Shown in pieces: positions 52,222 to 54,653 of a DNA stretch of 64,000 bases; the first letter of the stretch is position 1, and the number at the start of each line of letters is the position of its first letter. The position numbers and the translations under genes are program-made. The stretch comes from Actinomyces timonensis DSM 23838. Its GTDB lineage: Bacteria; Actinomycetota; Actinomycetes; Actinomycetales; Actinomycetaceae. Under the pieces are notes generated by a model. The model was not told the DNA's origin. It worked only from the letters and a program-made list of their open reading frames with translations, and ran no database searches. Location of the stretch: NCBI RefSeq assembly GCF_000295095.1, contig NZ_JH806633.1, positions 743,625 through 807,624 on the forward strand, read 5' to 3'.

Positions 52222-52467
52222 TCAGGCGCCGGCGTGGAAGGTGCGGTTGAGGACGTCCAGCTGCTGCTCGCGCGTCAGCTTGACGAAGTTGACGGCGTAG
52301 CCGGAGACGCGGACCGTGAGGTTCGGGTAGTTCTCCGGGTGCTCCATCGCGTCCTCAAGGGTGTTGCGGTCCAGGACATTGATGTTGGCGTGGTAGAGAC
52401 CCTTGACGCCGCCATTGTCCTGGCGCTGCGCCTTCATGGACTCGAGGCGCTCTTCGTAGGTGGGCAT
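52222..52467 (-). CDS. grcA: stand-alone glycyl-radical subunit of a split pyruvate formate-lyase (GrcA-like)
   Basis: 81 residues. After about 20 unique residues ([20 protein letters not shown]), the sequence [20 protein letters not shown] then [20 protein letters not shown] matches the C-terminal glycyl-radical domain of PFL. The radical glycine is G56 in RVSGYAV. Unlike E. coli GrcA/YfiD it lacks the additional N-terminal domain of about 60 residues. The preceding pflB gene ends before this domain, so this protein likely completes the enzyme rather than only repairing it. AAAGGGG precedes ATG 52467. Order pflB-grcA-pflA, one operon. Confidence 0.92.
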
Positions 52468-52535
52468 GTCTGCCCCTTTCTGTGTGGTGAGTTGTGTTCT
52501 GAGCCGTGATGGTCCAGGGGATCGCCCGTGGGCGA

Positions 52536-54653
52536 TCAGACCTCGGCGCAATCGTCCGGGACGAAGCCCGCGTCGAGGATTCCCACGAGGTTGGAGACGC
52601 GCTCATCGAGCGTGCGGCCCAGGCCCTGCGGGGTGATGGTGTTGGTCAGTGAGATGCCGTCGAGCGCGTCGTTGTAGTCGAGCTTGCCGACGGAGAGCAT
52701 GGAGGCGACCATGCCGTGCGTGTCCATGCCGTTCTCCGGGTTCGCGCCCGGGGAGAAGGGGGTGCCCTTCTGGTGGCCGGACGGGAAGGAGCCCGTGGCC
52801 TTGCCGTAGACGACGTTCGAGGTGATCGTCAGCACGGACTGGGTCGGGATCGCGTCGCGGTACATGGGCTGCGCCTTGATCTTCGACATGATCGTGTGGA
52901 CGACGGTGGCAGCGATGTCATCGGCGCGGTCGTCGTCGTTGCCGTAGATCGGGAAGTCGCCCTCGGTGACGTAGTCGACGACGAGGCCGGTCTCATCGCG
53001 CACCGGGGTGACCTTGGCGTACTTGATGGCGCTCAGGGAGTCGGCGACGATCGACAGGCCCGCGATGCCGCAGCCCATGGTCCGCACGATGTCGGAGTCG
53101 TGCAGCGCCATCTCGATGGCCTCGTAGGCGTAGCGGTCGTGGCACATGTGGATGATGTTGAGGGCCTCCACGTAGGTGGCGACGACCCAGTCGAGCATCT
53201 TCTCGTACTTGTCCCAGACCTCGTCGAAGTCCAGGGGGCCGTCGCCCTCGACGCCGGGCAGGCCGGTGACGACCTGCTTTCCGGTCATCTCGTCGCGGCC
53301 GCCGTTGATGGCGTACAGGAGGGCCTTCGCGGAGTTGACGCGGGCACCGAAGAACTGCATCTGCTTGCCCACGCGCATCGGGGACACGCAGCAGGCGATG
53401 GCGGCGTCGTCGCCCCAGTGCTCCCGGATCTGTTCATCGGCCTCGTACTGGATGGAGGAGGTCGTGATGGAGATGAAGGCGCAGAAGTCCTTGTAGCCCT
53501 TGGGCAGCTTCTCGTCCCAGAAGATGGTGATGTTGGGCTCCGGGGCGGGGCCGAGGTTCACCAGCGTCTGGAGGAGGCGGAAGGAGGTCTTGGTGACCAT
53601 GTGGCGGTTGTCGTCGGAGAAACCGGCGTCGGACCAGGTCGCCCAGTAGGGGTCGCCGGAGAAGATCTGGTCGTAGTCGGTGGTCCGCAGGAAGCGCGTG
53701 ATGCGCAGCTTCATGACGATGTTGTCGATGAGCTCCTGGGCGCGGCTCTCATCGATGATGCCGGCCTTGAGGTCCCGCTCGAAGAAGCAGTCGAGGAAGG
53801 CGGACAGGCGGCCGATGCTCATGGCAGCACCGTCCTGGGACTTCACCGAGGCGAGGTAGGCGAAGTAGGTCCACTGCACTGCCTCGTGGGCGTTCTTGGC
53901 CGGGCCGGAGATGTCGAAGCCGTAGTCGGCCGCCATCTTCTTGAGCTTCTTGAGGGCCTTGATCTGCTCGGAGTGCTCCTCGCGGTAGCGGGCCCAGTGC
54001 TCGGAGAAGGGCTGGTCGGCGACCTTGTCCTTGGCGATCTGCTTGAGCTCGATGAGGCGGTCCACGCCGTAGAGGGCCACGCGGCGGTAGTCGCCGATGA
54101 TGCGGCCGCGGCCGTAGGCGTCGGGCAGGCCGGTGATGATGTGGCTGGAGCGGGCGGCGCGGATGCGCGGGGTGTAGATGTCGAAGACCGCGTCGTTGTG
54201 GGTCTTGCGGTAGCGGGTGAAGATCTTGGCGACCTCCGGGTCGACCTCCTTGCCCGCCTCCTTGATGGCCTGGGCGACCATGCGCCAGCCGCCGTTGGGC
54301 ATCATGGCGCGCTTGAGCGGGGAGTCCGTCTGGAGGCCGACGATGACGTCGTCGTCCTCGCTGATGTAGCCGGGGGCGAAGGCGTCGATGTCAGAGGGGG
54401 TGTGGGTGTCGACGTCGAGGATGCGGACCTTGCGCTCCTCCTTGAGGTACTTCTCCTCCAGGGTCTCCCACAGGCGAAGGGTCTTGTCCGTGGCGCCGGC
54501 GAGGAACGAGGAGTCGCCGTCGTAGGGGGTGTAGTTGCGCTGGATGAAGTCGCGGACGTCGATGTCCTCGGTCCACGGGCCGGTGACGAATCCCTCCCAC
54601 GCGTCGGTCGGGGTGCCCTCCGCGGTGGTGGATGAAGTGACCTCAGTTGTCAT
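52536..54653 (-). CDS. pflB: formate C-acetyltransferase large subunit lacking the glycyl-radical domain
   Basis: 705 residues versus about 760 for E. coli PflB. It converts pyruvate and CoA to acetyl-CoA and formate. The thiyl pair is present as C421-C422 in [20 protein letters not shown]. Other PFL landmarks are [24 protein letters not shown] [37 protein letters not shown] and the NPMHGRD-equivalent [10 protein letters not shown]. The chain ends [17 protein letters not shown], exactly where E. coli PflB would continue into the radical domain. Strong AGGAGG before ATG 54653. The 68 nt to the next gene have no frame linking the two. Confidence 0.95.

Follow-up and report, generated by a model that had tools for sequence, protein, structure and literature searches.

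A probable two-chain pyruvate formate-lyase with a separate glycyl-radical subunit in Actinomyces timonensis and many of its relatives

The pyruvate formate-lyase (PFL) locus of Actinomyces timonensis DSM 23838 very probably encodes, to judge from its sequence, a two-subunit enzyme in which a small protein of 81 residues acts as the obligatory radical subunit of a 705-residue catalytic chain. PFL, which converts pyruvate and CoA to acetyl-CoA and formate, is central to the anaerobic breakdown of sugars, and oxygen destroys it at the radical glycine. The locus lies in a stretch of 64,000 nt, called here the window (assembly GCF_000295095.1, contig NZ_JH806633.1, positions 743,625 to 807,624, forward strand), and its features are collected in Table 1. 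The small protein is most likely obligatory because the pair is the sole PFL of the genome, because the arrangement is conserved across species, because the tree favors a single clade of split enzymes, and because one lineage has joined the two chains again. The obligatory radical subunit proposed in the earlier note on this DNA is therefore well supported by comparative evidence.

Table 1. Features of the split PFL locus (positions within the window).
Feature	Position	Strand	Evidence
pflB, large (catalytic) subunit, 705 aa, without glycyl-radical domain	52536..54653	(-)	TIGR01255 982 bits; PF02901 661 bits; PF01228 positions 1-65 only
Codons of active-site Cys421-Cys422 (= E. coli C418-C419)	53388..53393	(-)	alignment to 1h16
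68-nt intergenic stretch with weak ribosome-binding site of the small gene (GAAAGGGG)	52468..52535	(-)	
Small glycyl-radical subunit, GrcA2 family, 81 aa	52222..52467	(-)	NF008341 167.1 bits; PF01228 positions 65-106
Small-subunit leader, residues 1-20, predicted helix 4-17	52408..52467	(-)	66 distinct small subunits; helix in both models
Codon of radical Gly56 (= E. coli G734)	52300..52302	(-)	alignment; invariant 66/66
pflA, radical-SAM PFL-activating enzyme, 292 aa	51321..52199	(-)	TIGR02493 306.8 bits, cut-off 231.75

The 106 positions of the Pfam Gly_radical domain (PF01228) are divided between the two proteins, 1–65 in the large and 65–106 in the small. The match of the large protein to TIGR01255, the equivalog of one-chain PFL, reaches profile position 681 of 744 and falls 12 bits short of the curated cut-off of 994.2, a shortfall that is put down to the absent C-terminus. 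When aligned with E. coli PflB, residue 697 of the large protein corresponds to E. coli 693 and residues 19–78 of the small protein to E. coli 697–756, which places the cut between E. coli residues 693 and 697; C421/C422 fall on C418/C419 and G56 on G734. The active-site Cys-Cys pair of a one-chain PFL is thus present in the large protein, and the radical glycine lies on the other chain, within RVSGYAV (residues 53–59). The radical-SAM activase expected of the glycyl radical enzyme superfamily is encoded nearby, pflA starting 22 nt beyond the small gene. The open reading frames and the E. coli alignment bear out the earlier description of a PflB that carries C421-C422 and ends where the radical domain should start, and the coordinates of the reading frames confirm both the 81-residue protein with RVSGYAV and G56, 68 nt downstream, and the position of pflA.

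The whole assembly (4 contigs, 99.95% complete) was searched with PF01228 and PF02901. Gly_radical matches were restricted to the two halves, a single PFL-like match was obtained, and neither a full-length PFL nor any other Gly_radical domain was found in the genome by this search. The check for a full-length PflB elsewhere, suggested by the earlier note, has thus been run, and the split pair is the only PFL. This result bears on the reading that the small protein serves, in the manner of E. coli GrcA/YfiD, as a spare part for the repair of oxygen-cleaved PFL. By score the small protein belongs to the NCBIfam family GrcA2 (NF008341, "autonomous glycyl radical cofactor"; cut-off 145 bits), and its domain has 38 of 59 residues in common with YfiD; against the model of E. 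coli-type GrcA/YfiD (TIGR04365), however, it reaches 84.4 bits, below the cut-off of 170, and the full-length PFL that such a spare part would repair is missing from the genome. GrcA/YfiD and the Y06I protein of phage T4 (6OWR) resemble the protein described here in being separate small radical-domain proteins that work on PFL in trans, but the PFL they serve has a radical domain of its own, whereas here the domain of the small protein is the only one. With the family-wide counts given below, the spare-part reading is very unlikely, and the name GrcA2 implies an autonomous cofactor where the genomic evidence says subunit.

The survey of related genomes that the earlier note had called for shows that the arrangement is widespread. 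Among the 80 GTDB loci that match the small protein most closely, which are the best 80 of at least 587 and therefore lean to close relatives, 48 are split (including that of Corynebacterium phocae, where the end of the large gene alone is present) and 32 are fused. Split loci come from Actinomyces, Schaalia, Actinotignum, Arcanobacterium, Trueperella and Varibaculum, and further ones from Corynebacterium, Rothia, Dermabacter, Brachybacterium, Propionibacterium and Cellulomonadaceae MAGs; fused loci include those of Bifidobacterium, Sanguibacter, Cellulomonas, Rarobacter and Tessaracoccus. In the family survey, a radical-domain match was obtained in 196 of 213 genomes, of which 157 are split, 32 contain the whole domain in one ORF and 7 have other matches only. 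A genome was called split when the match began at residue 1–3 within a short open frame, and the 157 consist of the window, 80/80 and 74/80 genomes of two sets, G126, and G123, the last counted although a contig end cuts its small gene; G178, with a long frame, was called split after its locus was read. The Cys-Cys pair was present in all 7 of the 32 whole-domain ORFs that were inspected. The 27 named genomes tested, which overlap in part with the assemblies above, are all split, and 23 hold exactly two pieces; a further full-span match occurs in Actinotignum schaalii, C. lubricantis and Zimmermannella alba, and a further half-domain in one Cellulomonadaceae MAG (G1018). A class-wide sample gave a match in 45 of 394 genomes, 3 of them split, window included, and one genome of this sample (G220) holds a 58-aa fragment.

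The same surveys extend the argument against a spare part, since 116 of the 157 split family genomes have no other long radical-domain match. Extra long matches are present in 41; 13 loci from 11 of these genomes were taken and 10 of them scanned, so that a second PFL is conceivable in the other 30. The possibility that these are second PFLs was rejected for 10 of 10 scanned matches, which proved to be six anaerobic, class III ribonucleotide reductases (NrdD), three PFL2-type enzymes and one arylacetate-decarboxylase-like enzyme. Inspection by eye of unscanned extra loci gave NrdD-type motifs (L110, L114) and GCVE (L116).

A sequencing or assembly error, or a decaying pair of pseudogenes, was also considered, and isolated loci do look decayed, as in C. 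phocae (L041:5627-6237), where, beside an intact small subunit and pflA, the large subunit is reduced to its last ~97 residues and its remainder was not found within the 12-kb locus. The occurrence of the same split in independent genomes, with 48 cases among 80 GTDB loci and 157 in the family, refutes the sequencing-error reading; the radical residue is conserved, large frames are intact and ribosome-binding sites are found in relatives, and the chance that the pair results from error or decay is practically negligible.

Several loci depart from the common layout. In Actinomyces provencensis (L021:5886-8844), a second copy of the end of the small gene and of pflA follows a run of unknown bases and is either a duplication or an assembly artefact. 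In another genome (G145:C17:1221192-1221712; L149, L153), a stretch of ~500 nt ahead of the small gene contains the large subunit's radical-domain portion twice, in opposite orientation. Two genera, g10 (G084–G086) and g13 (G095–G100), contain both split and fused PFL, G086 being only 76% complete, and such a mixture within one genus suggests gene replacement. A split PFL with pflA is encoded in Varibaculum vaginae (L029:3760-7268); a 2013 paper reports no pyruvate formate-lyase in Varibaculum cambriense (PMC4177395). Close GrcA2 relatives were found neither in phages (1533 records match, 664 at 60–80% identity and none higher) nor in plasmids (135 records, 81 at 60–80% identity and none higher), and the one plasmid match inspected, from Azospirillum, is an ordinary pflB gene. 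An N-terminal extension of PflA, considered as a split-specific trait, was dropped, as the PflA of fused Bifidobacterium aligns across most of it.

It has to be considered whether the two genes are nevertheless translated into a single fused chain by ribosomal frameshifting or stop read-through. In the window, the gap of 68 nt (68 mod 3 = 2) puts the small gene in a frame different from that of the large gene, so read-through of the stop cannot join them. The small frame is, however, open for 45 codons upstream of its ATG and reaches into pflB, so that a frameshift is conceivable from the window alone. Of 68 loci, 24 resemble the window in having a small frame that runs without a stop into pflB, and another 20 are closed by the stop of pflB alone; in the remaining 24, a further in-frame stop lies between the genes, which rules out a fused product there. 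The gaps between the large and small genes range from -4 to 219 nt (median 61) and occur in all three phases, and the small genes have start signals of their own. The earlier note had credited the small gene with its own ribosome-binding site. In the window this site (GAAAGGGGCAGAC-ATG) is weak and lacks a strict motif; in the relatives, by contrast, a strict AGGAG-type Shine-Dalgarno motif precedes 45 of 66 small genes vs. 19 of 2036 ATGs inside large genes. A single chain produced by recoding is thus extremely unlikely. A related suspicion, that long open frames beside half-domain matches (e.g., G069, G178, G205) mark many re-fusions, was rejected: separate genes were found in 20 of 20 loci inspected.

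The history of the split was approached with a quick-method tree of 110 large-subunit sequences, on which the split label requires 5 changes, compared with a mean of 32 when labels are shuffled. Constraining the Actinomycetota split rows together with L035 (Corynebacterium sp. Marseille-P4321) as one group raised the log-likelihood by 39.9 (p-AU 0.876), in a test from which the Bacillota row was excluded and for which the group was chosen after the tree was seen. The better tree found in this way favors, and the test is compatible with, a single origin of the Actinomycetota split rows as one clade. The basal forks of the quick tree, where fused Cellulomonas, Sanguibacter and Tessaracoccus meet split Cellulomonadaceae and Dermabacteraceae, are not resolved. 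L035 itself nests inside split Corynebacterium and possesses TAC where its relatives have the stop TAA, giving a single open frame of 827 aa in which the ATG of the small gene is retained and which scores 1041.8 with TIGR01255, above the cut-off of 994.2. From its sequence and placement, it appears to be a derived re-fusion through a lost stop codon, in a single assembly where a base-calling error is possible. Such a re-fusion supports the view that the two proteins are partners.

The small subunit differs from the corresponding part of a one-chain PFL by the leader at its N-terminus. In 66 of 66 distinct small subunits, T/S3, F/Y4, R7, M11 and R15 are found, E6 in 61 and K12 in 60, with a spacing characteristic of a helix. 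None of the 31 ordinary fused relatives in the set of 80 loci has this segment, their chain running straight through, and the re-fused L035 keeps the motif. The earlier note's remark on about 20 unique N-terminal residues is thus correct as to the presence of a leader and needs amending as to its uniqueness, the leader being conserved throughout the split group rather than confined to this genome. A helix is predicted at residues 726–739 of L035 and, with low confidence, at residues 4–17 of the window protein. The predicted fold of L035 has a mean pLDDT of 73.8, with values below 50 in the linker and at 407–430, where the Cys pair (416–417) lies; the small subunit modelled alone gave low confidence (67.7). 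Compared with E. coli one-chain PflB (1H16, 2PFL), the chain is here cut between E. coli residues 693 and 697 and a leader helix is added on the second chain; compared with proteins of the GrcA/YfiD type, in which Andorfer et al. describe a disordered N-terminus of 60 residues (PMC8683613), the small protein bears a conserved predicted helix of ~20 residues.

Published work on E. coli supplies precedents. Andorfer et al. (2021; PMC8683613) truncated the E. coli enzyme to residues 1–695 (tPFL) and combined this large piece with YfiD or with truncYfiD, which starts at residue 61 and corresponds to PFL 693–759. The same study reports proteolysis of cleaved E. coli PFL at 690–695, and the natural cut point falls at the same place as this proteolysis and the artificial cut. 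Once radicalised, tPFL with YfiD or truncYfiD was as active as the wild type (kcat of 121 and 204 per s, respectively). Radical installation on tPFL, however, fell from 15.9 to 0.5 µM with YfiD (32-fold lower) and reached 2.7 µM with truncYfiD, which is without the N-terminus (about six-fold lower), and binding of YfiD to cut PFL was undetectable by calorimetry (PMC8683613). The artificial tPFL:truncYfiD pair thus has the same cut and is active once radicalised, but it is a laboratory construct with poor activation, whereas the natural small subunit brings its own leader. Since the same cut in E. coli impairs both radical installation and YfiD binding, a natural split enzyme must solve an assembly problem. 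The leader helix (residues 3–17), conserved here and absent from fused PFLs, is a candidate device for this and probably docks the small subunit on the large one; our guess is that it supplies the affinity that the artificial E. coli split lacks. E. coli PflB G734A produced formate with GrcA and none without it, as given in Table 1 of PMC12338860, which indicates that the radical can be supplied in trans in vivo. For the split group itself, secretion of formate by A. naeslundii DSM 43013 has been reported and was interpreted there as use of PFL (PMC6493303). The genome of A. naeslundii NCTC 10301 contains split pieces only. We take DSM 43013 and NCTC 10301 to be the same type strain.

Assembly, radical installation and activity of the pair are what we infer from these comparisons. 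In the proposed mechanism, the large protein would provide the barrel, the substrate site and the Cys421-Cys422 pair, and the 81-aa protein would provide the last barrel strand, the glycyl-radical loop with G56 and the C-terminal helix. Probably after the two chains have come together, PflA would install the radical on G56, from which it would move to Cys422, as in one-chain PFL. A further step, proposed with less assurance, is that after oxygen cleaves G56, the small subunit alone would be swapped. Repair of oxygen damage by exchange of the 81-aa subunit, the idea advanced in the earlier note, is plausible and attractive by analogy with the E. coli small protein that restores activity in trans, and may be given a little less than an even chance. 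In its fullest form, this tentative idea would have the Actinomycetota lineage turn the spare-part trick into its normal design, in which the chain is permanently split at the site that proteases attack, the leader solves the problem of binding, and the radical subunit becomes an inexpensive cartridge that is swapped whenever the enzyme has met oxygen. A comparably serious contender, and one likewise short of an even chance, is that the gene broke in two neutrally and has stayed so by chance, exchange of the small subunit bringing no advantage; this reading accepts the two-subunit enzyme and disputes its purpose alone. It is favored by the re-fusion in one lineage and by the presence of split and fused forms within one genus (g10, g13), but the split has persisted in many genera together with an additional leader that is strongly conserved, an observation that neither proves nor requires a repair benefit.

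Split glycyl radical enzymes also occur outside the Actinomycetota clade. The phylum of an Oscillospiraceae bacterium (L055) was surveyed for GrcA3 (NCBIfam NF038360) at a threshold of 1e-30, which may miss remoter standalone proteins, and one case was recognised among 398 genomes of this phylum: in the Bacillota genome G832, a standalone small protein, belonging to GrcA3 by score, adjoins a short PFL and pflA. Its large-chain match ends at profile position 666, ~15 positions earlier than that of the window (681), and its small match starts at 664; given this different cut point, the G832 split is taken as a separate event. The survey returned two more short frames, G808 (252 aa) and G637 (198 aa). 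Bacillota single matches near 1e-20 are mostly full-span and in long frames, and are taken for NrdD-like or distant enzymes, G832 and G812 being the splits among them. Between the split PFL and GrcA3 of G832 lies an ORF of ~70 aa (L184:2454-2663) that, by eye, resembles the start of a radical domain (NVDNIVAMLDDMV...HINVS) without RVSGY; it has no match in Pfam or the PDB and may act as a plug or decoy at the empty site. In G812 (L131:1426-1755, L151:1-2042), a glycyl radical enzyme of the PFL2/dehydratase type is also split: its large part ends GREELSQAKFAE, and the radical part follows as a small protein in its own right, with a AAGGGGGTGAA site. The PDB entries 38LA and 38LB ("Formate acetyltransferase", chain lengths 687 and 739 aa) are closest to the G832 type, and their matches stop ahead of the radical domain; they may be natural split enzymes or truncated constructs, and split PFLs may therefore already be under study.

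The small-protein family is already named in databases as GrcA2. No natural split PFL is described in the titles among the matches listed in a search of open-licence PMC papers, a collection outside which preprints and most subscription journals lie. From a natural and widespread two-chain PFL it would follow that the radical domain needs no covalent attachment to the rest of the enzyme, and that the database reading of GrcA2 should be corrected, the protein being a subunit and not a repair protein. Such an enzyme would also give a ready system in which the binding, activation and replacement of a radical domain can be followed. Since the small protein is separate and the design recurs in many relatives, the fragile, oxygen-sensitive piece might be replaced alone, and the two-chain design may hint at how oxygen-tolerant glycyl radical enzymes could be built for industry.
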